Source: an uncultured Bacteroidales bacterium (GTDB lineage Bacteria > Bacteroidota > Bacteroidia > Bacteroidales > F082). Taken from it: a stretch of DNA of 64,000 nt. Position numbers and translations under genes: made by a program. Position 1 is the stretch's first letter. Every line of letters begins with the position of its first letter. The notes beneath the pieces are model-generated. The model saw nothing but the letters and a program-made list of their open reading frames with translations, was not told the origin of the DNA and made no database searches. The DNA is taken from assembly GCA_946185535.1 (NCBI GenBank), contig CAMHJX010000013.1:1-64000 (forward strand), given 5' to 3'. Positions 35,409 through 49,012 of the stretch are shown here, piece by piece.

Positions 35409-37436
35409 TTATTGAATTGTCAGTTTGGTTGTAATCTCATGCCCCTCGTTTGTGGCCTTCAGGAAATACAATCCCTTCGGGCATCGGCCAAGGTCAATGG
35501 CTGATTGACCTTTGTGACGGCCTTCGTAAACCTTGCGGCCCGTGATGTCAAAGACTTCCACGCTCCACTGGCCTTCGCCGAGGTTAACATTAAACTGGCC
35601 GTTGGAAGGATTGGGATAGACATTAAACTCTTGATTTTCAGCCTCATCGACCGATTGTGTCTCTTGGAACGTCACAATTTGTTTCACTGAAGTTTTATTA
35701 CCTCCATAAAGGGCCTGAACCTCAATGACATATAGCTTTTCAGGCAAATATTCATACTCGTATTCGGTTTCATTGACATTCTCAGCAACCAAAACGTTGT
35801 TCACATACACGTTGTAGCCCGTCGGCGTGCCTTGCGAAGGGGCATCCCACGAAACAAGGAGACAATGGCAATACACACCTTCCTCCTCTTCGGCCTTCAG
35901 ATTCTGCACCGAATAAGGATGCTCGTCAGTGTATTCGTATGCGAAACGGCTGTTGTAAATCTCCTTGGTGGCATGGTTCTGAACCCAGACGGCCACTTCC
36001 AAATCGTTCATTTCCTCGACATGGGTCGATGCCATATCGTATTCAAACTCAAAGTGTTGCTCCTCGCCCACAGTGAAATTCACTTGCGTGCCTTGGGCAT
36101 CGGGGAGCATCTTCATCATGACGTGGAAAAACTCCGTCTCGCCGTTGCTGCCCGTGTTGTTGACCGTCCTTTTTTCGTTCACCGAAACGAAGACACGGGC
36201 ATTTTGGTCGACGAAAGGCATGATGTCGGCCACCACCTTGATGGTGCTGCCTTGCATGGAGAACGAGCTGCGGATATCGAACAGCGCCACCTGCTCCAAC
36301 ATGGGTTCGAAATTGGTGGACAACACCGGATTCTCGCCTTGGTCGACGCCATCAAGGAAGGCTTGGGGGACGCCCACCACATTATAATAATAGAAACGGG
36401 TGTCGCTTTCGGAGGTGTGGTATCGATCGCCAAAAGTGGGATACTTCACGAAGGCGAACTGCCCCGCATAGTCCTCGCAAAGCTGGTGCAAAGCCTCGTT
36501 GTTCTCCACGCACGGGCCGCACGTCGACGACGAGAAACTCTCGATCATCACATTCCTTTCGCCAATGGCGTGAACCACCGTGAGGGTCAATTCAAGCTCA
36601 TTGTTTTCGTCGTTGTCGTCGCCTTCCGCACCGTTAACTTCCAATATCTTGAAAACGCAGTCGTGTTGGCCTAAACCAAGGTCGACGGGGGTGCTGAAAG
36701 TCAGCACGTCGCTGGTCATATAGGGAATGTTGACCGAGAAAGTCTCCGCCACAGGCTCCTGACCGTCAATCTGATAACTCAACTCGACCGAAGTGATGGC
36801 ATCGGTGCCGTAGTTGAGCACCTTCACGCCGAGATTCGTCTCGCCGTAGGGAAGCGTAGCCGGAAATGCCAATCTCGTGAGGCCCAAATCATTGTTCGTA
36901 TTGCTGATGATTTCGATGTCGTCGAAAAACCACTGAAGGAACTGGTGGCTGTCGGTATCGACGAACACGCAGAACTGCACGTTGGGCTGCCCCATGTCGG
37001 GCGATTCGATCGACTCAAGCACATGGTAAACCGACGACGAATTGTAGGTGTGGCGCCAGCACTCATGCCAGGTGACACCGCCGTCGGACGAGGTCGCAAT
37101 GCCCATGTCGTTGGAACCGTAGAAATGCTCGTAGGAGTGGTTGAACGTAAACGTCACGCCGCTCACACCCGTCATGTCGAAGGCAGGTGTGACTAGGCGC
37201 GCCATGCCAGTAAAATATGGAGAAAATTGTAGTTCCATCTCGTTGGGCGTACCGCCTGCATTGTTCGTGCGGGAAACGACCCAGTTGTTGCCGCCTTCGC
37301 CCATGGTCGACCATCCGGCAGGGATGGAGTTACCATCAAAGGATTCGTGAAGCAAGACAGCGCGATTTTGTGCCAATCCATTGACTGAAAGTAGGATAGC
37401 CATCGCAATAGTAATAGTAATAAATACTCTTCTCAT
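35409..37436 (-). CDS. T9SS-exported protein: cleaved-adhesin-like, thioredoxin-like and Fn3 domains
   Basis: The 675-residue protein has a signal peptide ending near GLAQ, an N-terminal jelly-roll of the cleaved-adhesin/choice-of-anchor J type (ESFDGNSIPAGW to FFDDIEII, about 30-180), a linker strand domain, a thioredoxin-like domain with CxxC in SSSTCGPCVENNEAL (about 300-420), a fibronectin-like domain (about 535-600), and a T9SS type A sorting domain at the end (VYPNPSNGQFNV to KLTIQ). The first domain type also occurs in gingipain and HagA proteins. The 26-bp motif shared with the sigma gene lies upstream at 37479-37504, suggesting control by the same sigma factor. Confidence 0.85.
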   Translation of the reverse strand: MRRVFITITIAMAILLSVNGLAQNRAVLLHESFDGNSIPAGWSTMGEGGNNWVVSRTNNAGGTPNEMELQFSPYFTGMARLVTPAFDMTGVSGVTFTFNHSYEHFYGSNDMGIATSSDGGVTWHECWRHTYNSSSVYHVLESIESPDMGQPNVQFCVFVDTDSHQFLQWFFDDIEIISNTNNDLGLTRLAFPATLPYGETNLGVKVLNYGTDAITSVELSYQIDGQEPVAETFSVNIPYMTSDVLTFSTPVDLGLGQHDCVFKILEVNGAEGDDNDENNELELTLTVVHAIGERNVMIESFSSSTCGPCVENNEALHQLCEDYAGQFAFVKYPTFGDRYHTSESDTRFYYYNVVGVPQAFLDGVDQGENPVLSTNFEPMLEQVALFDIRSSFSMQGSTIKVVADIMPFVDQNARVFVSVNEKRTVNNTGSNGETEFFHVMMKMLPDAQGTQVNFTVGEEQHFEFEYDMASTHVEEMNDLEVAVWVQNHATKEIYNSRFAYEYTDEHPYSVQNLKAEEEEGVYCHCLLVSWDAPSQGTPTGYNVYVNNVLVAENVNETEYEYEYLPEKLYVIEVQALYGGNKTSVKQIVTFQETQSVDEAENQEFNVYPNPSNGQFNVNLGEGQWSVEVFDITGRKVYEGRHKGQSAIDLGRCPKGLYFLKATNEGHEITTKLTIQ

Positions 37437-37478
37437 ACTTTTTACAGAATTAGTTAGTTTGCCTTTAATTTTTAATTA

Positions 37479-37504
37479 GGTGCAAAAGAGCAAGGGATAA
37501 TAAC
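37479..37504 (-). promoter_or_regulatory. Putative ECF-type promoter, copy B
   Basis: On the minus strand the 26 bases begin GTTATTATCC and end TTTTGCACC, with GTTATT and GCACC at the same distance as in the copies before the sigma gene, the giant adhesin and its paralogue. The distance to the ATG of the 675-residue protein gene is 42 bases. There is no TA two bases before TTTG, so it is not a normal -7 box. Confidence 0.6.
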
Positions 37505-37686
37505 GGAGGGAGGAGGAAAGTTTTGGCAGGTTACAATTCTCCAGCCATATAAAGCGGCAAATAACCACGCCGTCTTCAACTTTGACATAGGAGGAGTGAA
37601 ACGCAAACGGAGTGGATAGTTGCTGCGCGTATTTGTTGCGGAATTATTTCAAGCATCTGTAGGACTAAAACTTTTCTCCTCAGCCC
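37505..37686. other. Intergenic core between divergent motif copies B and A
   Basis: No gene is seen in these 182 bases. The flanks are two facing copies of the shared 26-bp motif. An upstream extension of the sigma gene frame reaches 37620 but includes the promoter. Confidence 0.5.
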
Positions 37687-37712
37687 GTTATTTTCTTCCC
37701 TACCTTTGCACC
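37687..37712 (+). promoter_or_regulatory. Putative ECF-type promoter of the sigma gene, copy A
   Basis: The 26 bases begin GTTATTTTCTTCC and end CTTTGCACC. This copy also contains a normal -7 box TACCTTTG (37701-37708), so it may be read by the housekeeping sigma factor as well. The sigma gene ATG is 24 bases downstream. Confidence 0.6.
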
Positions 37713-37736
37713 CAACAACATAAACAGCCAAACTTA

Positions 37737-38258
37737 ATGCCGTCTGCACCCATTGCCTCCACCGAAAAACGCGTCGAAGCCTTCAACGCCCTTGTGTTGC
37801 GCCACAAGGCGATGATTTGGCATGTGTGCTCCGACTACAGCCTCGGAAGGGTATGGAACACAGAAGACTGCATGCAAGAGGTGATGGTCAATCTGTGGCG
37901 CGACTTCGACAAGTTCGAGGGTCGCAGCGCGGAGAAGACCTGGGTGTGGCGCGTGGCCACCAACACGATGCTCATGCTGCGCCGAAAAGACGTCAGAAGC
38001 CCGCAGACCGAAACGATGGACCCAACCAACGAAGGCCTTGCAGGGGCAGCACTGCAGGACGACAACTACCAGCAGCTGCTGCAACTCATCGACGCACTAC
38101 CCGAAGAAAACAGCGTCGCCATCCGCGCCTTCCTCGACGGCTTCTCCTACAAGGAAATCGCCGACATGACTCACAGCACTGTGGGCGCCGTGGCCATGCG
38201 CATCGCACGCACCAAACGTCGGCTCAAGCGGATGTACGAAGCAGAAAACACCTTATAG
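37737..38258 (+). CDS. ECF RNA polymerase sigma factor
   Basis: The 173-residue protein has region 2 (LRHKAMIWHVCSDYSLGRVWNTEDCMQEVMVNLWRD, about 20-80, with the RVATNTMLMLRRK helix) and region 4 (LPEENSVAIRAFLDGFSYKEIADMTHSTVGAVAMRIARTKRRL, near 130-168). No region 3 or extra domain. I chose the ATG at 37737 after the -7 box; an in-frame start at 37620 would lie upstream of the promoter. It is followed 3 bases later by a small membrane protein gene, in the usual place of an anti-sigma factor. Identical 26-bp motifs in front of it and of nearby T9SS cargo genes suggest autoregulation and a local regulon. Confidence 0.9.
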   Translation: MPSAPIASTEKRVEAFNALVLRHKAMIWHVCSDYSLGRVWNTEDCMQEVMVNLWRDFDKFEGRSAEKTWVWRVATNTMLMLRRKDVRSPQTETMDPTNEGLAGAALQDDNYQQLLQLIDALPEENSVAIRAFLDGFSYKEIADMTHSTVGAVAMRIARTKRRLKRMYEAENTL

Positions 38259-38261
38259 TTT

Positions 38262-38681
38262 ATGAACGAACAACCAACATATAGAACAATGAACGCAAAC
38301 CAAAATCGTGACGATTTCCGACAGCTTTGGGAACGACGCAAACAGACGTGGCAAAATGAAAACGATATGAACGTGCCCGACGACACCACCGTTCTGAAAA
38401 TGGCCGAACTCGCCCGCCAAGTTTCACCTGCTCGCGATGAAAACATCGTTCCTATCAGCCTCGGACGGCGCGGCCGCTGGATCCCCTATGCCGCTGCAGC
38501 CAGCGTGCTCATCGGTGTCGGTGTCATCGGTCTGACCTACCAAAGCGAAATGCCCAATCAGCCACAACTGCTTAAAGCCCAAAAGATAAACATCAACGGA
38601 CAGAACGTGCGTTTCCTGTGCAACAACGGTTGCTCGGCGCAAGACATACTGGTCTCGGCCAACGACATCATCAAAAAATAA
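38262..38681 (+). CDS. Small single-span membrane protein, candidate anti-sigma factor
   Basis: The 139-residue protein has an N-terminal soluble part with DDFRQLWERRKQTW, one membrane span near 72-93 (WIPYAAAASVLIGVGVIGLTY), and a short outer part with two Cys (FLCNNGCSA). Position and topology match an anti-sigma factor for the sigma gene just upstream, but no known anti-sigma domain (such as a zinc-binding HxxxCxxC) is visible, so the role is inferred. Confidence 0.7.
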   Translation: MNEQPTYRTMNANQNRDDFRQLWERRKQTWQNENDMNVPDDTTVLKMAELARQVSPARDENIVPISLGRRGRWIPYAAAASVLIGVGVIGLTYQSEMPNQPQLLKAQKININGQNVRFLCNNGCSAQDILVSANDIIKK

Positions 38682-38687
38682 CCAGCC

Positions 38688-39512
38688 ATGAAGAAAACCA
38701 TCACATATCTTTTGCTGCTCCTCTTGACGGCGATGGTGGCCTGTTGCGACAACGAAAGCGGACAGGAAACGACAAGCCCGTACGATACAAATGCCGCGCT
38801 CAAACTATATTGCCAATATGCCGACAACGAGAACCTGACCGTGGCTTATCTCGGCGACTTTGAAATCAACGGCAACCCTATCGACGCTGTCATGATCCAA
38901 GCCGACAACGACCTCGACTGGCAAGAGCTGAGCAAAGACTTCGACATATTTACAAAAATTGATTCATGCGTCGAACAAAACAACATATCCATGTGCCCCA
39001 ACCGCGACGAACTTATCTCCTTAGGCATTGGCATCGAGACCGACTTCCTGCAAGTACTCGGACTCGACAGCACTATCACACGCGACCAAATCACCGAAGA
39101 ACACATCAATACATTCTCGAAGTACTTGTCCCTACAAATCAAGGACATCCTCAATAACTTCCAGGACTCCGACACCCTCATCCATGATGCCACCATCATC
39201 ATTGGCGACGGCCCTGTGACCCCTGCCAGCAACATGTCCATCGACGAATATATCAACACCGTGGCCGAAGTCCTCACCCAAAGCATCTTCGATGAATTCT
39301 TCACCAATCAAGACAGCCTCAACCTCGCCCCCAACCCCATAGCTGAAAACAACGAATTGCTCGACAACGCCAAAAGCCACGGCCACAGCGGCTACGTTAC
39401 CGCAGCCGACTACAAGAACCGCACCATGTGGCTCTTCTTCTATGATGACCAAAAGGAATGTAACGTCATCCTCACTCACATCAAAAACGACATCATCATC
39501 AAAGAAGAATAA
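38688..39512 (+). CDS. Lipoprotein linked to the sigma factor operon
   Basis: The 274-residue protein has a type II signal peptide, lipobox MVAC (C19; the next residue is also Cys). The mature part is acidic and helical (EEHINTFSKYLSLQIKDILNNF and similar), with no family I recognise. It starts 6 bases after the membrane protein gene, so the three genes form an operon: sigma factor, membrane protein, lipoprotein. Confidence 0.72.
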   Translation: MKKTITYLLLLLLTAMVACCDNESGQETTSPYDTNAALKLYCQYADNENLTVAYLGDFEINGNPIDAVMIQADNDLDWQELSKDFDIFTKIDSCVEQNNISMCPNRDELISLGIGIETDFLQVLGLDSTITRDQITEEHINTFSKYLSLQIKDILNNFQDSDTLIHDATIIIGDGPVTPASNMSIDEYINTVAEVLTQSIFDEFFTNQDSLNLAPNPIAENNELLDNAKSHGHSGYVTAADYKNRTMWLFFYDDQKECNVILTHIKNDIIIKEE

Positions 39513-39536
39513 ACAAGAATAAACAGAGAGACCGGG

Positions 39537-39639
39537 ACTTCCACATTTTTCATGTTTTTATCACGTTAATAATGCTAGTTTGTCAGAGACAATTTCTTTT
39601 TTCGCAATGATTTTCCCCAAAACCATTGCATGTGGAAGT
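39537..39639 (+). ncRNA. Candidate structured RNA
   Basis: ACTTCCACAT (39537-39546) pairs exactly with ATGTGGAAGT (39630-39639). Directly before the right arm GCAATG (39604-39609) pairs with CATTGC (39624-39629), so two helices would stack. The right arm is followed by TTTTTCC, like a terminator. No promoter box was found, so this could also be a transcription end for the lipoprotein operon. Confidence 0.35.
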
Positions 39640-39732
39640 TTTTCCATATGATGACGCCTCTTGAACCCCGAAGAAGCAATGAGAATGAGAAAGCTTAATA
39701 AATTGGTTAATTAATTCAGTGAAAGCGAAATG

Positions 39733-39757
39733 GGCGGCCTTCAAGGTCGCCTTTTTC
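39733..39757 (+). terminator. Hairpin with T tract before the giant adhesin promoter
   Basis: GGCGGCCTT (39733-39741) pairs with AAGGTCGCC (39743-39751) with one wobble and is followed by TTTTTCTG. It isolates the giant adhesin gene from the sigma operon. Confidence 0.65.
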
Positions 39758-39787
39758 TGTTTTGTGGAATATTTTTCCAAAAAGGCA

Positions 39788-39813
39788 GTTATTTTTCCCC
39801 AGACTTTTGCACC
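39788..39813 (+). promoter_or_regulatory. Putative ECF-type promoter of the giant adhesin gene, copy C
   Basis: The 26 bases begin GTTATTTTTCCCC and end CTTTTGCACC. The TA of a normal -7 box is missing (GACTTTTG instead). The 76-base leader holds an imperfect hairpin CTCAAAGGA/TCCTTGAG followed by a T-rich tract, 39820-39862, which could work as an attenuator. Confidence 0.62.
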
Positions 39814-39889
39814 TAGACTCCTCAAAGGATGAAAAATGTCCTTGAGTTTTTATTTATTTTTCTATTAATTAACTAATTTTCAAAACTTT

Positions 39890-42800
39890 ATGCAAAAGAA
39901 AGCATTTTCTTTCGTTTTGACGCTCCTGCTCGCCTTCATGGGCATGGCGAGAGCTGATGTAGTGACCATCGGCGAAGGGACGAGCACGGGCTACGTGACC
40001 CCGTTCAACAGCCTTTGGGGCTACTCATGCGTTGAGCAGATCTACACTGCCAACGAAATTGGGACTGCTGGAACCATCAACTCCATCAGTTTCAATCTGT
40101 CCTCTGGTTCGCAAACGAACCAAGTTGAGGTTTTTATGAAGAACGTGACAAGAAGCACGTTCTCAAGTACTTCGGATTACGAAGCCCTCACCGCTTCGGA
40201 CATGGTGTATAGCGGCACCGTGACGTTCAACGCCGGGTGGACCACGATCACGCTCGACACTCCGTTTGCGTATGACGGCAGCAGTAATCTGTTGATTGCC
40301 ATGCACGAGTTCACCTCGGGCTACAGCACAATCAACTTTTATTACACCTCGGCTGCGAACACGGTGGTGACGTTCCACAGCGACAGTGTAAACCCCGACC
40401 CTTACAATCTGGGTTCGTTCAGCGGTAGCTCCTACACCTCGTCCAACCGCGCCAACATCCAAATCGACATCACTCCTGGTGGTGCTGGCAACGGCGACAA
40501 ACTGCACGTGCAGTTCATGGACGGTGAAAACGTGGTCATCGACTCGCTGAACATGGGCATCCGCCCGATTAACGCATGGATGGAACCTTTCGAGTTCACC
40601 ATGTACAGCGAAGGCCCGACCTATACGGTGACCAACCTCGACTTCACCCCAAGCGATGGCATGTTCAGCGTCAGCGGTCAGGAATTGCCTTTCCAAGTGA
40701 CCCGTTCACACGGTGTTGACCTTACCATCAGCTCCAATGCCACACAAGCTGGCGTGGTTGAGCGTCAGTTTGTGGCCATCACCGAAGGCAATCGCGCCGC
40801 CCACATCTGGCCCATCGTGGTCGAGGTCTACAACCCCGCCGTTCCGGATGTGTGGGAGATGGCTTGCACCCAAGCCACCACGTTCCCCTTCGTGGAAGTG
40901 CCTGCAACAGCCCACAATACCACTCTGCACAACGACTACACCCTGCCTTTCCCCGAAATCGAGGAAGGTTATGATGCCGTCTACAAGCTCGTGTTCACGC
41001 AAGACCGTATGCTGAACGCCAGCGTCAGCAATGGCCAAAACGGCAAAGTGGCCCTCTACAAGGAAGGCTTTGAAGGCCAAGGCGGCCCCATGGCTACCAA
41101 CAACTACACTGGCCCCCAAACCGCCACTGCCGAAGGCATCAGCTACGGCCCCGTCATCACCAACGCTGCCGTCGAAGCTGGCACCTATTATTTGGTGGCC
41201 TCTTCGACCACGCCTGACTTCCAGGTGACCATCGATGCCCAAGCCATGCCTTGCCCGACGGTTGAAGGTTTTGCTTTCAACCCGACGCCTGCCGACAATG
41301 CCGACGGCCTCGAGCCTGCCAGCGTCACGCTGCAATGGACGCTGCCCGCCTACACCACCGAGTGGCGCCTGGTGTTCGGAACGACCTACTATCCTGAAGC
41401 CGGTCATCCGCAAACCATCATCACCGACTGGTCGAGCGAGCTGGCCAACAGCTACACCGTGACCAACCTTTGGAACAACACCAACTACTTCTGGAGGATA
41501 GAGATGCGCAACGACGGTTGCCCGCAAGGCGTGAGCAGCCCGATTTGGGGCTTCACCACCAACCTCAACCGCCCGCACGACCTGACCACCGTCGACCAAA
41601 ACATCTTCGAGGACGAGCAAGTCGTGTTGAACTGGACGGCTGTCGTCGACCGTACTTTCCGTACCTATAACGTGTACCGCGACGGTCAGCTCATCGGCAC
41701 CACCCAAGTGAACAACATCGGCAACGCCACCTATACTGACGGTCCTCTGGCCTACAACATGAACGGCTACACCTACCATGTGACCGCCGTTTACGACGAA
41801 GGCGAAAGCGCCCCGTCGAACACCGTCACGGTGAACGTGAGCGGCTATACCAACACCACTGGCGTCAACGGTTACGTTTGGGAACAAGACGGTGAAACGG
41901 GCATCCAAGGTGCCTTGGTCACCCTGACCACTACCGACGAATTTGGCGACCCGCACACCTACACGGTCACTTCGGGTGCCAACGGTTACTACAGCAAGCA
42001 AATCTATGCTGGCACCGTGACCAACGCCGTGGCCACTTTGGACGGCTACCAAGAGACTGTCACCGTCCACGAATTGCCCTTCACCGTGGCCCACAATGCT
42101 CAAGAGGACAACGTGAACTTCTTGATGGACGAAAACTTCAACCCCGTTTGCTCAGTCATCGCCGAGTATTATCCCGACAGCCTCGACCCGAACAGCCCGT
42201 ATGTGAAGGTTTCGTGGGGCTGCGGCCTGCCTGGTGAGGAAATCATCGAGCCTTTCGAGACTGGCGACTTCAGCCAATTCGATTGGCAAATCGATGCCAA
42301 CTATCCTTGGAGCATCACCACCACCAACCCGTATGAAGGCCAATACTGCATGAAGAGCGGCGGCGCTGGCGTGGCCAACGTCACCAGCAACATGACCGTT
42401 ACGGTCGACATCCCCAGCGACGGCGAGATGAGCTTCTTCGGCAAGATCAGCTGCGAGCAGAACTGGGACTACGGCTACTTCTTCATCGACGGCCAACAGA
42501 TGGGCAGCTACACTGGTGCCGGCAACTGGGCCGAGCGCAAGTTCCCCATCACCGAAGGCACACACACCTTCCAATGGAGATACACGAAGGACGGTAGCGT
42601 CAACAGCAACGACGACTGCTTCTACGTGGACTACATCAGCTTCTACCATCAACCCGCTCCCGTGGAACCCGGTTGGGTGTTCTACGACGACGGCGTGAAC
42701 GTCGACGCCATCGGCCTGACCGCCGGCGGTTCGTTCTACTGGGGCGTGATGTTCCCCGCTGGCCAATATGCTGGCAACAGCCTGACCAAGGTGAGCATGT

Positions 42801-45800
42801 ACGACTATGCCGCCCACACTGGTAACATCATGGTTTACCAAGGTGGCGCCACCGCTCCTGGCACGTTGCTCTATCAACAGCCCTACACCTGCACCGGCAG
42901 CGAAGACTTCGTGGAATGGACGATGAACACGCCTGTGGCCATCGATCCTACGCAGAACCTCTGGATTGTGATGAACAACAACGACGGCCAATATGTGGCT
43001 TCTTGCTGCGCCAACACGGGCGACCCGAACGGTCGTTGGATCAGCATTGACGGCACGGCTTGGCAAGACCTCGTTGATGCAGGCCTTGATTACACCTTCA
43101 TGCTCCGCGCCTACGTGGCCAACGGCGCCAAGGGTGAATACATCGCTTCTGTCAACAACTGGGATGCTGCTTCGCAAATGGTGAAGAAAGCCGCTCCCGT
43201 GAAGGGCGAAAGCCGCACGAGCCTCTTTGCCGTTTCGGGCAATACCACCAAGTACAACGTTGGTGTTCCCACCCGCAATGGCAACACCCGCAGCCTGGAT
43301 CACTACAGAATCTATCGTACGCACTGCTACAACGACGGTCCTTACACCGAAGAGAACACCGTGCTGCTGGCCACCAACTGGCCCAGCGACACCATCTACA
43401 TCGACGTTGAATGGGCCGACCTGCCGGCTGGTATCTACAAGTGGGGTGTTGGCTGCGTCTATGCTGGCAACCGTGGCGAACTCGTCGAGTCACCCATCAG
43501 CTGGGGCGCTCCTCAAGCCATCAACCACGTCAACGGCGACCGTACTGGCCTCGCCAAGCACAGCATTGAGCTGATGCCCGGTGCCAATGCCAACCACAAC
43601 GCCAAGGCCATCGGCCAAGCCCTCCGTGGCGCCACTGCCTACGGCATGAACATCTTCGACGGTCTGGCTCTGCCTGTGGGTTACCTGAGCTTCGATATGG
43701 ACAACATCAATGGCGCTTCGGTCATCAACAGCCTCGCTGCCGTTGGCGGTTCGGCTTACGATGCCGCTACAGGTCACCTCTTTGTGAGCGATATTGAAAA
43801 CAGTCTCCTCTACGAATTGGATCCTGCCACCGGTAACATCCTCAACCAAGTGGAGACCACCTACGGCCTGCTGACCATCGCCATGGATCCCACCACGGGC
43901 ATCCTCTACGGCGAAGACGACTACGGCTACCTGATGACGGTTGATCCTGCTACTGGCGAGACCACCGACATCGATGTCATGGGTGCAGCCATGACCAGCA
44001 TCAGCTTTGATGGCAACGGACAACTCTACGGCTTGGCCGTTGGAGCTCCCACTGCTTTCTACAGCATCGACAAGACCACGGCCGTCGAGACGCTGGTTGG
44101 CAACCTCAACCACGATTCCAACTACGCCCAAAGCTTCGCCATCGACCCCGTCAATGGCAAGATGTACTGGGCTCAGTGCCTCAATCCTGACGACACGCAC
44201 TTCTATGAAGTCGACATGACCACTTTAGTCCTGACCGAACTGGCCGCCAACATCGGCGAAGTGACTGGCCTGGTGATTCCTGCCTACACCGAACCTGGTC
44301 CTGGCCCGGAACCCACTCCTGGTAGCAACATCAACGAGCTGGCTCTGCCTCGCGAAAGCGAGACCATCTGGTCCAACTGCCTCGAAAAGGGCATGTACCT
44401 CGGCGAAGACATGGTTGACATCAACGTGCTGCTCAACAGCGCCGACAGCCCAGAGGGCGTCAGCGTGAGCTTCACCAACCTCGACGAAAACGAACAAGCC
44501 GAACACCCGATGGATGCCATCGTCCTCGACGAGACTGGTTTCTACAGCTGGGATCTCTTCCGCAAGGGCGACTACATCGTCAACATCAACTTTGAGGGTT
44601 ACTACCCGATCGTCGACACCGTGAGCATCTGGGAAGAGACTCACATGCGCTATGTGATGACCGAGATCATCTACGGTGTCGAAAACCTCTACGTGAGCCG
44701 CACTGGTTGGGCCATGTGGGATCCTCAGGGCGCTGCCCCGACTCCTCCTACCCCGCCCACACCTCCCACTCCTGGTGAAGACGCCGTGATCGTGCTGAAC
44801 GTTCCTGCCGACATCTGGGGCGACGGCTCTGGCTATCAGATGCTGCTCGATGCCGATGCCACGATGTTCACGCAACTTGATGCCGTCAGCTTCTTCAACG
44901 AAATTGGCAGCTTCAGCGATTTCGAATACACGATTCCTGCCGATGCCGACTATGGCCTCAACCCCGCCCACGTGGTGGTTGGAACCAGCGTCTCCATCAC
45001 CGTGCCCGCTGGCACCTACGACTACGCCATCATCAACCCTGACAAGGTCAGCACCATCTATTTCGCTTCCAACAACGGCAATGCCCCGAGCAAGGGCGAC
45101 GATATGGTGTTTGAAGCCGGCAAGGCCTACACCTACACCGTTTACGAAAGCGGCACTGGCGATGCTGTCGACCTGACCGTCACCGACCGCGAAGGCAGAA
45201 GCATCAAGCCCGCCGCTCAGCACAACGTTGCCAACGCTGCTGCTCGCGTGCGCGAAAATGTTGCCAACAACGATCGTCACCTCGAATATTATAAGGTGAT
45301 GTGCGAGAGCCTCGACCACGAGCCCATCTTCAATGCCGACGTTCCTGCTTCGCAGCCTTTCTGCCAAGTGAACACCGCTGAACTGGTTGAAGGCGAACAC
45401 TACCTCTGCAAGGTAGCTGCCGTCTACAGCACTGGCATGAGCGATTGGACCGAATGCATCTGGCAGTATGAAAGCTGCGAGAACTATGCTGGCACCCTCA
45501 ACGGCGTGACCGTTGACGGCAATGTCATCAGTTGGGATTACCCGAACGGTAGCGGTCCTCAACCACCGGTTCCTCCGGTCCCGGGCGACAATGCCGAAAT
45601 CGTCTTGAACGTGCCCACCGACATCTGGGGCGACGGCTCTGGCTATCAGATGCTGCTCGATGCCGATGCTTCGATGTACACGCAACTTGAAGCCGCCCAG
45701 TACTTCAACGACCTCGGCAGCTTCGAAGGCTTCGAATACACGATTCCTGAAAACGCCGACTACGGCATCAACCCTGCCAACGTGGTGGTTGGAGCCAGCG

Positions 45801-47974
45801 TCACCATCACCGTGCCCGCTGGCACCTACGACTACGCCATCATCAACCCCGACAAGGTCAGCACCATCTGGTTTGCTGGCGCCGGCAACGTTGAGAGCAA
45901 GGGCGACGATATGGTCTACGAAGGTGGCAAACGTTACACCTACACTGTTTCCGCCAGCGGCACTGGCGACGCTGTCAACCTGACCGTCACCGACCGCAAC
46001 GGCAGAACGTATCAGCCCACCTTCCAACACGTGGCCACGGGTCAAGTGGTGCGTCATTCTGACAACATCGCTTCCAGCCGCGAGGGTCAGTGGTACTACT
46101 ACGACAATGGCAACAACATGGATGCCATCGGTCTGAGCAGCGGCACTGCCAACTTCTCATGGGGTATCATGTTCCCTGCCGGCAGCTACACTAGCGGCAG
46201 CCTGACCAAGGTTGGCTACTACGACTATGTGGCCCACACGGGTAACATCCACATCTACCAAGGCGGCACGGGCAACAGCACTCCTGGCGCTGAGGTCTAC
46301 GCGCAGCCTTACGCAGTGAACGGCACCGAGACCTACATCGAGATCGCCTTGACCGCTCCTGTGGCCGTCGACGCCACGCAAGCTCTGTGGGTGGTGATGG
46401 AAAGCACGACTCCTGGCTACACCGCAGCCATCGACGACAGCGGCATGACCAACCCGAATGGTGGCCTCGTCTCGACCGACGGTGTCAGCTTCTCGCCCAT
46501 CGACGTCGTCTCTGGCGGTGGCATCACGGGCAACTGGAACCTCCGTGCCTACATCGAGGACGGCGCTCCTGTGCCTCCTGTTCCGGCTGGCAACGTCCTC
46601 GGCGCCATGATCTTCGCCGATGGCGAATGGGAAGCCTTCGTCGAGTACCCGACCAACAGCTACGTCTACGAAGGCGATGCCGAAAATGTTTGCGTCCGCA
46701 TGGTCTATGACGGCACGGCCGAACTGCCCGACAACAACTTCTACTATGCCATGAGCTGCGAAGAGTGCGAAGCCGCCCTGATGTGCGAAAGCGAAATCAT
46801 GATCCACGGCGAAGCCATGACCGACACCGACCAAGCCAGAGTGTGGTGGGGCGAGCGTGCCGAAGGCTGGCTGACCTACCTGCCTGAAGAGTTTACTCCC
46901 GAAGGTGCAGTCGCCTTAGGCGATCCTAACGGTGGTGGACTGCCGTTCTACGGCGGTTGCATGTATCCCACTTCGGTGCTGACAGAATACATCGGCAGCA
47001 ACCTTGACCAGATTGCTTATCTCGACATGGCTGATCCTGAGACCACAGGAAATCTGCAAGTGCACATTTACCTCGGAGGTGACCAGGATCCTGAAACATG
47101 GATGACCAGCCAATCCTTCACAGTCACTGGTAACGAGTATGGCATGCAAACTGTCAACCTTGATCACCCGATCCATATTGATGGCGACAAGAACTTGTGG
47201 GTCATGTTCTACACCGATCCTGCACAGCAAGGTGCTCCTTTGCCATTCGTCAACGACCTTGGCGATGCCAACACTCGTTGGGTCGGCATTATGGGTTCGT
47301 GGATGGACTTCGCAAGCATGGGTGCCAACTATAGCTTCGTCCAGATGATCCACTTCGGTGGCAACAAGTCGGCTGGCCTGACATTGAACGATGGCATTGC
47401 CGTTAACCCCGGCACCGGTGTCAACATTAGCGACATCAACGTCAACGTCATCAATGTCAATGCTGGCTCGCTCCATACGAACGTCATGTATGACTTCGCG
47501 CCTGTCCAGTACAACGTGTACCGTTCTGCCGACAACACCAGCTACGAGCTCATCGCTTCGGTGCCTTACGTTGAAGGCCAGACCTACTACGAGTACGTCG
47601 ACACGCCCGAAACGAGCGACGACTACTACTACCAGGTCCGCACGGTCTACGAAGACGGTTGCGAATCCACGCCGGCCCTCAACGCCGACGACGAGACGCA
47701 GAACTACGTCCTCGTGGCTGTCAACGTCGGTATCGGTGAGAATAGCGACAATGTCGCCCTCTTCCCAAACCCGACCAACGGCAACGTGACCATCCAAGCC
47801 GCTGGCATGAGCCACATCACCGTGACGAGTGTCCTCGGCCAAGTGGTTTACGACACCGATGTCAATGCTGACGAAATGGTCATCAACATGGGCCAATTCA
47901 ACGCTGGCATGTACATGGTTCGCATCAACACCGAAAATGGTGTGGTTGTGAAGCGCGTCACTGTCATGCAATAA
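39890..47974 (+). CDS. Giant HagA/gingipain-like adhesin with T9SS sorting domain
   Basis: The 2,694-residue secreted protein has a signal peptide (ending near ARA-D) and a modular chain: an N-terminal sheet domain, a fibronectin-like module (about 560-650), a carboxypeptidase-regulatory-like module (about 657-735), a choice-of-anchor J/cleaved-adhesin domain (783-920), three copies of a DAIGL..WG..FP module (about 930-1075, 2067-2225, 2343-2500), a propeller-like stretch (1267-1463), two DUF2436-type domains (about 1632-1775 and 1902-2043, with the GYQMLLDAD and PAGTYDYAIINP motifs known from HagA and gingipains), Pro-rich linkers such as PTPPTPPTPPTP, and a T9SS type A sorting domain (2617-2694). 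No protease or other enzyme domain is seen. It is more GC-rich than its flanks. Confidence 0.9.
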   Translation: MQKKAFSFVLTLLLAFMGMARADVVTIGEGTSTGYVTPFNSLWGYSCVEQIYTANEIGTAGTINSISFNLSSGSQTNQVEVFMKNVTRSTFSSTSDYEALTASDMVYSGTVTFNAGWTTITLDTPFAYDGSSNLLIAMHEFTSGYSTINFYYTSAANTVVTFHSDSVNPDPYNLGSFSGSSYTSSNRANIQIDITPGGAGNGDKLHVQFMDGENVVIDSLNMGIRPINAWMEPFEFTMYSEGPTYTVTNLDFTPSDGMFSVSGQELPFQVTRSHGVDLTISSNATQAGVVERQFVAITEGNRAAHIWPIVVEVYNPAVPDVWEMACTQATTFPFVEVPATAHNTTLHNDYTLPFPEIEEGYDAVYKLVFTQDRMLNASVSNGQNGKVALYKEGFEGQGGPMATNNYTGPQTATAEGISYGPVITNAAVEAGTYYLVASSTTPDFQVTIDAQAMPCPTVEGFAFNPTPADNADGLEPASVTLQWTLPAYTTEWRLVFGTTYYPEAGHPQTIITDWSSELANSYTVTNLWNNTNYFWRIEMRNDGCPQGVSSPIWGFTTNLNRPHDLTTVDQNIFEDEQVVLNWTAVVDRTFRTYNVYRDGQLIGTTQVNNIGNATYTDGPLAYNMNGYTYHVTAVYDEGESAPSNTVTVNVSGYTNTTGVNGYVWEQDGETGIQGALVTLTTTDEFGDPHTYTVTSGANGYYSKQIYAGTVTNAVATLDGYQETVTVHELPFTVAHNAQEDNVNFLMDENFNPVCSVIAEYYPDSLDPNSPYVKVSWGCGLPGEEIIEPFETGDFSQFDWQIDANYPWSITTTNPYEGQYCMKSGGAGVANVTSNMTVTVDIPSDGEMSFFGKISCEQNWDYGYFFIDGQQMGSYTGAGNWAERKFPITEGTHTFQWRYTKDGSVNSNDDCFYVDYISFYHQPAPVEPGWVFYDDGVNVDAIGLTAGGSFYWGVMFPAGQYAGNSLTKVSMYDYAAHTGNIMVYQGGATAPGTLLYQQPYTCTGSEDFVEWTMNTPVAIDPTQNLWIVMNNNDGQYVASCCANTGDPNGRWISIDGTAWQDLVDAGLDYTFMLRAYVANGAKGEYIASVNNWDAASQMVKKAAPVKGESRTSLFAVSGNTTKYNVGVPTRNGNTRSLDHYRIYRTHCYNDGPYTEENTVLLATNWPSDTIYIDVEWADLPAGIYKWGVGCVYAGNRGELVESPISWGAPQAINHVNGDRTGLAKHSIELMPGANANHNAKAIGQALRGATAYGMNIFDGLALPVGYLSFDMDNINGASVINSLAAVGGSAYDAATGHLFVSDIENSLLYELDPATGNILNQVETTYGLLTIAMDPTTGILYGEDDYGYLMTVDPATGETTDIDVMGAAMTSISFDGNGQLYGLAVGAPTAFYSIDKTTAVETLVGNLNHDSNYAQSFAIDPVNGKMYWAQCLNPDDTHFYEVDMTTLVLTELAANIGEVTGLVIPAYTEPGPGPEPTPGSNINELALPRESETIWSNCLEKGMYLGEDMVDINVLLNSADSPEGVSVSFTNLDENEQAEHPMDAIVLDETGFYSWDLFRKGDYIVNINFEGYYPIVDTVSIWEETHMRYVMTEIIYGVENLYVSRTGWAMWDPQGAAPTPPTPPTPPTPGEDAVIVLNVPADIWGDGSGYQMLLDADATMFTQLDAVSFFNEIGSFSDFEYTIPADADYGLNPAHVVVGTSVSITVPAGTYDYAIINPDKVSTIYFASNNGNAPSKGDDMVFEAGKAYTYTVYESGTGDAVDLTVTDREGRSIKPAAQHNVANAAARVRENVANNDRHLEYYKVMCESLDHEPIFNADVPASQPFCQVNTAELVEGEHYLCKVAAVYSTGMSDWTECIWQYESCENYAGTLNGVTVDGNVISWDYPNGSGPQPPVPPVPGDNAEIVLNVPTDIWGDGSGYQMLLDADASMYTQLEAAQYFNDLGSFEGFEYTIPENADYGINPANVVVGASVTITVPAGTYDYAIINPDKVSTIWFAGAGNVESKGDDMVYEGGKRYTYTVSASGTGDAVNLTVTDRNGRTYQPTFQHVATGQVVRHSDNIASSREGQWYYYDNGNNMDAIGLSSGTANFSWGIMFPAGSYTSGSLTKVGYYDYVAHTGNIHIYQGGTGNSTPGAEVYAQPYAVNGTETYIEIALTAPVAVDATQALWVVMESTTPGYTAAIDDSGMTNPNGGLVSTDGVSFSPIDVVSGGGITGNWNLRAYIEDGAPVPPVPAGNVLGAMIFADGEWEAFVEYPTNSYVYEGDAENVCVRMVYDGTAELPDNNFYYAMSCEECEAALMCESEIMIHGEAMTDTDQARVWWGERAEGWLTYLPEEFTPEGAVALGDPNGGGLPFYGGCMYPTSVLTEYIGSNLDQIAYLDMADPETTGNLQVHIYLGGDQDPETWMTSQSFTVTGNEYGMQTVNLDHPIHIDGDKNLWVMFYTDPAQQGAPLPFVNDLGDANTRWVGIMGSWMDFASMGANYSFVQMIHFGGNKSAGLTLNDGIAVNPGTGVNISDINVNVINVNAGSLHTNVMYDFAPVQYNVYRSADNTSYELIASVPYVEGQTYYEYVDTPETSDDYYYQVRTVYEDGCESTPALNADDETQNYVLVAVNVGIGENSDNVALFPNPTNGNVTIQAAGMSHITVTSVLGQVVYDTDVNADEMVINMGQFNAGMYMVRINTENGVVVKRVTVMQ
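44811..44861. repeat. Near-identical DNA in the two DUF2436 copies
   Basis: Fifty bases starting GACATCTGGGGCGACGGCTC are repeated with no visible change at 45619-45668. Neighbouring parts of the same domain differ clearly, so this points to recent duplication or gene conversion. Confidence 0.75.
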
Positions 47975-48021
47975 TTAGGCTTGTAGGGCTGTCGTACCAC
48001 GGCAGCCATCAAACCGAAAAG

Positions 48022-48054
48022 AAGAGGCAATCCGCACGGGTTGCCTCTTTTTTT
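48022..48054 (+). terminator. Intrinsic terminator after the giant adhesin gene
   Basis: AAGAGGCAA (48022-48030) pairs perfectly with TTGCCTCTT (48041-48049), followed by TTTTT. Confidence 0.9.
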
Positions 48055-48074
48055 GATTATTTTCCCACGATTTC

Positions 48075-48100
48075 GTTATTTTTCCGCCATTCCACGCACC
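48075..48100 (+). promoter_or_regulatory. Putative ECF-type promoter, copy D
   Basis: The 26 bases begin GTTATTTTTCCGCC and end CCACGCACC. The TTTG part of the other copies is replaced by CACG, so only GTTATTTT and GCACC are kept. The ATG is 51 bases downstream. Confidence 0.55.
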
Positions 48101-48151
48101 TAAATAAAACATAAAACAAAACGTTTTACCAATAATTAAACCAAAAGCACT

Positions 48152-49012
48152 ATGAAGAAAAATGTATTCTCATTGATGTTGTTGTGCTGCTTCGCCTTCG
48201 TGGGCGTGGCTAAGGCACAGGAAGGAATCAAAGTGACGGTCAACACTGACGTCAACGCAACGATTTCAGACCTGAGAGCTCCTATCGTACTGACCTATGC
48301 TCCCGAACCCATTACACCTGCCGGCTTCCTCTCCATCGGCATGGCCTTCCACTGGGGCTACATGTTCCCCGCTGAAATGATTGCCGAATACGACGGCAAG
48401 TATTTAACCCAGGTCGCCTACGTGGACTACACCAACTCCGCAGGCGAATACGAAGTGCACATCTGGCAAGGTGGCGACACGGCTCCCGCGACTGAAATCA
48501 CTCGCCAAGCCTTCACAATCACAGGCACACTCAATAACATTGTCCCGCTTTATCTCGACCAACCTGTACTCATCGATGGATCACAGAACCTATGGGTGAC
48601 CTTCTATCAAGACGGCTCGGTGCAACAAGCCGCTTGCGTCATCACCGACATGGGCGACCCAAACAGTCGCTGGATTGGTGTTGATGGCTACGGCTGGATG
48701 GATATGGCTACGGTGCAAGGCGGTGCTGGCTACAGCTTTGCATTATGGGCCATCGCCGACGACTACGATATCATTGGCGAGTTCGACAGCAACGTGGCCG
48801 TGTATCCCAACCCCACCACGGGCAAAGTAAACGTGGCCGCCCCCGGCATGAACCACATCACTGTGTTCAATGCCATGGGCCAAATGGTGATGGACATGCC
48901 CGTCAGCACCAACAGCCAGGTCTTGGACATGAGCCAATACCAAGCGGGTGTCTACATGGTGCGCGTGGCCTCTGAGAAGGGCATCAGCACCAAACGCGTG
49001 ACCGTGATGTAA
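48152..49012 (+). CDS. Single-module paralogue of the giant adhesin, T9SS cargo
   Basis: The 286-residue protein has a signal peptide (ending near AKAQ), one module of the kind found three times in the giant adhesin (LSIGMAFHWGYMFPAEM, LTQVAYVDYTNSAGEY, IDGSQNLWVTFY, PNSRWIGVDGYGWMD), and a T9SS type A sorting domain (AVYPNPTTGKVNV to KRVTVM) nearly the same as that of the giant protein. It may have come from the giant gene by duplication of its last module and end. A shared terminator follows. Confidence 0.87.
   Translation: MKKNVFSLMLLCCFAFVGVAKAQEGIKVTVNTDVNATISDLRAPIVLTYAPEPITPAGFLSIGMAFHWGYMFPAEMIAEYDGKYLTQVAYVDYTNSAGEYEVHIWQGGDTAPATEITRQAFTITGTLNNIVPLYLDQPVLIDGSQNLWVTFYQDGSVQQAACVITDMGDPNSRWIGVDGYGWMDMATVQGGAGYSFALWAIADDYDIIGEFDSNVAVYPNPTTGKVNVAAPGMNHITVFNAMGQMVMDMPVSTNSQVLDMSQYQAGVYMVRVASEKGISTKRVTVM

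Follow-up and report, generated by a model that had tools for sequence, protein, structure and literature searches.

The ECF sigma factor SigP (PGN_0274) of Porphyromonas gingivalis has been tied to type IX secretion; it acts with PorX/PorY, is driven by this two-component system and serves the genes of the secretion machinery (PMC4800418, PMC8265659, PMC7712824). The motif proposed for SigP is C(T)AAA(G/C/T)A(T)A(C)T(A/G)A (PMC4800418). In Flavobacterium psychrophilum, the SM6 promoter group is presented as a predicted ECF class with an ECF/anti-sigma pair and T9SS genes, among them genes of the machinery (gldN and porU, for example), and with a CGT box at -10 (PMC9723704).

The locus described here was found in an uncultured Bacteroidales bacterium, in a window of 64,000 nucleotides (the whole stretch of DNA that was analysed). 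It very probably encodes an ECF sigma factor that controls its own gene, is paired with a membrane anti-sigma factor and serves specifically some of the T9SS proteases and adhesins via a two-box promoter. The motif, its spacing and orientation, the associated genes and the co-occurrence with the sigma gene were read from the sequence; the sigma factor P0001 would be the protein that reads the motif, and the releasing signal would come from the envelope. No cargo regulon of such kind was found described in the open-licence PMC literature.

The sigma operon and the neighbouring cargo genes

The features of the locus are the following, the promoters being predicted ones:

35409..37436, minus strand: T9SS cargo gene encoding P0003, 675 aa, with a Por_Secre_tail CTD (PF18962 over cut-off) and a CGPC motif seen in the sequence
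37476..37504, minus strand: promoter of the divergent T9SS cargo gene (P0003), 21.8 bits with model R1
37687..37715, plus strand: promoter of the sigma operon, GTTATTTTC...TACCTTTGCACCCAA, overlapping a TAnnTTTG box, with orthologous sites, 19.7 bits with model R1 (whole genome)
37737..38258, plus strand: gene of the ECF sigma factor P0001, 173 aa, with sigma regions 2 and 4 (PF04542, PF08281 and TIGR02937 over cut-off)
38262..38681, plus strand: gene of the candidate anti-sigma factor P0002, 139 aa, starting 3 nt after the sigma gene, with a predicted membrane helix at about residues 73-95 and a C-terminal tail
38688..39512, plus strand: third gene of the operon, encoding the conserved lipoprotein P0006, 274 aa, with a lipobox-like N-terminus read by eye
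39788..39816, plus strand: promoter of the giant adhesin gene (P0005), 22 bits with model R1
39890..47974, plus strand: gene of the giant T9SS cargo P0005, 2694 aa, with two DUF2436 stretches, fn3 and a CTD (PF10365, PF00041 and PF18962 over cut-off)
48075..48103, plus strand: promoter of the small cargo gene (P0004), 13.6 bits with model R1, the weakest of the four
48152..49012, plus strand: gene of the T9SS cargo P0004, 286 aa, with a CTD (PF18962 over cut-off)

P0001 was matched by the profiles PF04542 (50.5 bits), PF08281 (42.8 bits) and TIGR02937 (76.5 for a cut-off of 42.9), and contains regions 2 and 4 only, which places it among the ECF sigma factors. Orthologs were detected in 54 of 99 congeneric genomes (E <= 1e-30). 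When 84,980 species genomes were scanned, relatives with at least 60% identity made up 55 of the 80 best loci, after which the identity falls to 37%. The relatives come from Bacteroidales/Bacteroidia MAGs obtained from goat, buffalo, deer and sheep (rumen, abomasum, caecum and similar sites), and also from bacterium F082. At one locus (L165, G122) the sigma ortholog is interrupted by one internal stop.

The gene order was followed at 53 sigma loci, which overlap the 99 congeneric genomes, so that the two sets are not independent; a locus beginning within the gene (L238) and one whose gene is cut by the contig end (L290) were omitted. A P0002 homologue was present downstream in 51 of the 53 loci and a P0006 homologue in 50, and in 45 of them a CTD gene was located within 5 kb downstream or started divergently within 700 nt. 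The single membrane helix of P0002 was predicted by eye from the sequence. In its FxCNxGC tail, the residues F118, C120, N121, G123 and C124 are invariant in all 32 aligned sequences. The 'anti-sigma factor' profile NF052375 weakly matched 18 of 32 family members (best E 0.00099), P0002 itself scoring 17.8 bits for a cut-off of 100. The gene position, the predicted helix and these weak profile matches suggest that P0002 could be the brake of the sigma factor.

For P0006, the Pfam search gave no family, with seven scattered one-member matches among 31 homologues, and the search among solved structures gave no relative (best E 0.28). The P0006 family (38688-39512 and its orthologs) has a conserved C-terminal stretch near WLFFYDDQEEC and is tied to the sigma locus.

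The CTDs of P0003, P0004 and P0005 scored 53.5, 51.7 and 43.2 bits, respectively, for a curated Por_Secre_tail cut-off of 27, which classifies the three proteins as T9SS type A cargo. DUF2436, present in P0005, is a domain of gingipain-type adhesins.

A two-box motif at the sigma gene and at cargo genes

The original prediction had described four sites sharing a 26-bp pattern with GTTATT at one end and GCACC at the other, located 24-76 nt from the ATG, three of them lacking the TA of the usual TAnnTTTG box. All these points were confirmed. The sites lie at 37479-37504 (minus strand), 37687-37712, 39788-39813 and 48075-48100 (plus strand), with 42, 24, 76 and 51 nt, respectively, between their 3' end and the ATG, and the TA is found in register at 37687 only; at 48075, TTTG is absent too. 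In the whole assembly of 3,673,387 bases, the exact pattern matched these four sites only (one match for the reversed-pattern control), and dinucleotide shuffles gave a chance expectation of 0.01 matches per window. When one mismatch was allowed in GTTATT-N15-GCACC, 51 matches were obtained in the genome and 66 in the reversed control; the short consensus is thus specific as an exact match only, and a longer motif is needed for variants. Its use with one mismatch as a search tool was dropped.

In the genus, the motif consists of two boxes, GTTATTTTT and TTTGCAMCTAA, separated by 8 or 9 nt, the distance from the first G to GCAMC being 20 or 21 nt and rarely 22. The strict pattern GTTATNNT-N12-TGCAMCTA, searched in 99 genomes of the genus, gave 91 matches in 52 genomes (reversed control, 5). 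The sigma gene was the downstream gene for 40 of them (38 were assigned by script, and G056 and G020:C33 from their coordinates) and a CTD cargo gene for 38. Six more precede cargo homologues, the C-terminus being outside the fetched stretch in five cases and the sixth (G035:C161:7512) being read in L285, and the match G007:C110:3671 is located farther upstream of a P0005 homologue. Two matches inside CTD genes (G122:C21:371639 and G126:C26:70960) were not counted in the cargo class, two have no downstream ORF (G124, G047), and CTD-less genes follow the motif in G030 (285 aa) and G058 (a 170-aa ORF). At least 38 CTD genes among 51 non-sigma matches correspond to p 3e-29 if CTD genes represent 9% of the genes, a generous round figure that was assumed, the shared ancestry of orthologs being ignored. 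An equal frequency of the motif before unrelated genes, which the original prediction had named as an argument against itself, is therefore not what was observed across the 99 genomes.

The pattern shortened by one base (GTTAK) gave 46 matches (control, 14), 39 of which precede CTD cargo genes and two the sigma gene. Three others (G046, G039:C12 and G020:C33:34646) precede cargo homologues that are cut or outside the fetched stretches, the latter two being C10-protease matches, and two further ones were in G119 and G134. Lengthening by one base, the spacing control, gave five matches for five in the control; three are one repeated sequence and two precede CTD genes. Given the match counts at these three spacings, the boxes tolerate the 25- and 26-type, and rarely the 27-type.

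Upstream of the sigma orthologs, the recurrent sequence is GTTATTTTTC...CTTTGCA(A/C)CTAA. At 50 of the 53 loci the sigma gene has the motif no more than 260 nt away; at the remaining three (G041, G052, G138) the motif precedes a 339-340-aa CTD cargo gene situated just upstream of the sigma gene. At L161 (G011) and L162 (G039), inspection by eye showed the promoter directly before the sigma gene and adjoining what seems to be the last stretch of a T9SS cargo gene, as though the cargo gene that once separated the two had been lost.

The genome of the window was scanned with a sequence-only model built on 46 sites, 150 of 2120 candidates being scored. In this ranking, the three stronger window sites came first and 48075 was eighth. 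Ranks 4, 5, 6 and 16 were C22:49552, C1:40931, C8:42859 and C9:104041, with weak E values of 0.008, 0.068, 0.125 and 1.7, and all four precede CTD genes whose products are 97.7, 74, 74 and 74% identical (range 70-98%) to orthologous cargo that carries the strict motif in other species. For the 22 other model matches listed, up to E 10 among the scored candidates, no listed CTD lies downstream, and several low-scoring ones look like plain TTTGCACC promoters of unrelated genes. The near-matches on these four contigs indicate that the regulon is probably wider than the window. Since the genome contains at least 150 T9SS CTDs (150 of 199 candidates scored), the four-site group represents a small subset of the cargo.

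The geometry GTTATT - 16 nt - CAMCTA is consistent with the -35/-10 pair of an ECF promoter, and SigW-type promoters have a similar spacing. Among the 26-type sites, TAnnTTTG was in register in 20 of 39 at the sigma gene versus 4 of 38 at cargo genes (p 1.6e-4); it was present in 14 of 39 cargo sites of the 25-type and, when both spacings were pooled, in 22 of 41 sigma-gene versus 18 of 77 cargo sites (p 0.002). From its presence in these 20 sigma-gene promoters it follows that a housekeeping sigma factor could act there, and the box would then allow a basal expression of the sigma operon.

The same box speaks for an explanation in which all these sites are ordinary housekeeping promoters, GTTATT being the site of a transcription factor that controls T9SS cargo and has the sigma gene merely as one of its targets; the resemblance of the low-scoring genome matches to plain promoters of unrelated genes goes in the same direction. 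Such an explanation is improbable, because 59 of the 77 cargo sites do not have TAnnTTTG and 48075 does not have even TTTG, because the motif is non-palindromic, oriented toward the gene and composed of boxes at a near-fixed distance, and because its occurrence tracks the sigma gene.

Motif occurrence, sigma gene presence and cargo families

A match of the 25- or 26-type was found in 53 of 54 sigma-positive genomes versus 9 of 45 sigma-negative ones (Fisher 2e-17, uncorrected for phylogeny). The strict matches amounted to 86 in the 54 sigma-positive genomes (1.6 per genome) and 5 in the 45 sigma-negative ones (0.11), and the background in 147 genomes of other Bacteroidales was 15 matches (0.10 per genome), 13 of which are inside mechanical ORFs. 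In G003, the only sigma-positive genome without a 25- or 26-type match, a relaxed site lies before the sigma gene and a 27-type match before a C10-like CTD gene. With sigma or cargo genes downstream of most matches and matches that follow the presence of the sigma gene, these data support the original proposal that the sigma factor would control both itself and the surface cargo.

An independent comparison was carried out on C10-protease genes by scoring the 300 nt upstream of each gene with a matrix whose training set was 38 sigma-gene promoters alone. The 20 sigma-positive cases were chosen for having no strict match, and the sigma-negative genomes with a known match at a C10 gene (G008, G140, G142, G143) were omitted. 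A score of at least 12 bits was reached in 17 of 20 sigma-positive versus 3 of 20 sigma-negative cases (Mann-Whitney p 1.8e-4), in a sample where the protein types are imperfectly matched, the type of about 680 aa being commoner among the sigma-negative genes. The counts were 16 versus 2 of 20 at 14 bits and 14 versus 2 at 16 bits, and the contrast was gone at 18 bits (6/20 versus 2/20, p 0.24).

Matches at cargo genes were detected in the sigma-negative genomes G008, G046, G140, G142 and G143. The matches in the nine sigma-negative genomes imply that the sigma gene was lost or unassembled there, or that the motif has another reader. The sigma gene was not found in G046, whose genome is 90% complete; at L337 of this genome there is a divergent pair of motif-bearing cargo promoters, as in G052. 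The persistence of motif-bearing cargo promoters in some sigma-negative genomes is compatible with recognition by another cellular sigma factor, the local sigma gene being just a member of the regulon, and candidates exist, for a search of the window's genome with the sigma protein gave seven matches at E <= 0.001, itself included, and the genome thus has at least six further ECF-like matches. This possibility appears very unlikely, since genomes devoid of this sigma gene show the background match rate despite their other ECF factors.

The 77 CTD cargo proteins with the motif fall into ten families once their last 70 residues are removed. Ten representatives, nine motif-bearing and one from the end of a sigma operon, were scanned with Pfam. 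The families recognised were BspA-type LRR, C10 peptidase with I69 inhibitor (two), M28 peptidase, S8 subtilase, IgGFc-binding (two), CARDB and thioredoxin/AhpC, the remaining one showing the CTD only. No T9SS machinery gene was recognised among the classified matches of the genus and of the genome itself, CTD-bearing components such as PorU or PorZ being excluded for the ten scanned representatives. That the motif is common only because functionless leaders were copied along with duplicated cargo genes, as the C-terminal sequence common to P0004 and P0005 and the recurrence of some cargo families among the matches might suggest, is hardly credible: it is carried by ten families between which no similarity was detected beyond the CTD, the cargo sites are weakly conserved outside the two boxes, the ATG lies anywhere between 29 and 140 nt away over 79 CTD matches, and the C10 genes of sigma-negative genomes are mostly without it. 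The original prediction had already used the differing distances at the four sites against a shared ancestry of whole leaders.

Proposed control circuit and comparison with described systems

In the preferred reading, an ECF sigma factor acting on its own operon and on surface cargo, the product of 37737-38258 would direct RNA polymerase to the -35-like box GTTATTTTT and the -10-like box TTTGCAMCTAA, 8 or 9 nt apart. It would transcribe the operon of the sigma factor, the membrane anti-sigma factor and the lipoprotein, followed in many species by T9SS cargo, and also a small set of T9SS cargo genes coding for adhesins, proteases, thioredoxin-like and LRR surface proteins. The membrane protein P0002 would retain the sigma factor until a signal from the envelope, which might be sensed via the periplasmic CxxxC tail of P0002 or via the lipoprotein P0006, frees it. 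The freed factor would then amplify itself and turn on the surface proteins.

A broader and more tentative interpretation, which we consider possible but doubtful, is that a lineage-specific ECF sigma factor became a dedicated switch of the T9SS surface arsenal. Its operon would hold the brake, the lipoprotein and, in many species, cargo, and ten unrelated cargo families would have gained its promoter. The invariant CxxxC tail of the brake, together with the thioredoxin-like cargo, could provide a feedback from the cell surface on redox state or secretion status.

Such a promoter code would allow the surface proteases and adhesins that are made together to be predicted from sequence in a genus of uncultured rumen Bacteroidales. 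The compact set of sigma factor, anti-sigma factor and promoters could be assayed in a culturable relative and offers a testable control circuit for type IX secretion.

Autoregulated ECF/anti-sigma pairs in general, such as RpoE of E. coli (1or7) and SigH of M. tuberculosis, resemble the present system by their domain layout and by a neighbouring membrane anti-sigma factor, for which P0002 is the candidate here; the profile match to 1or7_A is 2.4e-16. The promoter boxes of such pairs are of the GGAAC / GTC type, from which those of the present motif differ. The SM6 group is likewise an ECF-type promoter class with an ECF/anti-sigma pair and T9SS genes, whereas the present motif has TTTGCAMCTAA and sits at cargo genes. 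SigP is also an ECF sigma factor linked to the T9SS, but the motif described here is dissimilar and matches at cargo genes and at the sigma gene itself, which is followed by a membrane protein gene. The links described so far between ECF factors and type IX secretion, SigP and SM6, concern the machinery, and the promoter code proposed here would address a defined part of the cargo.
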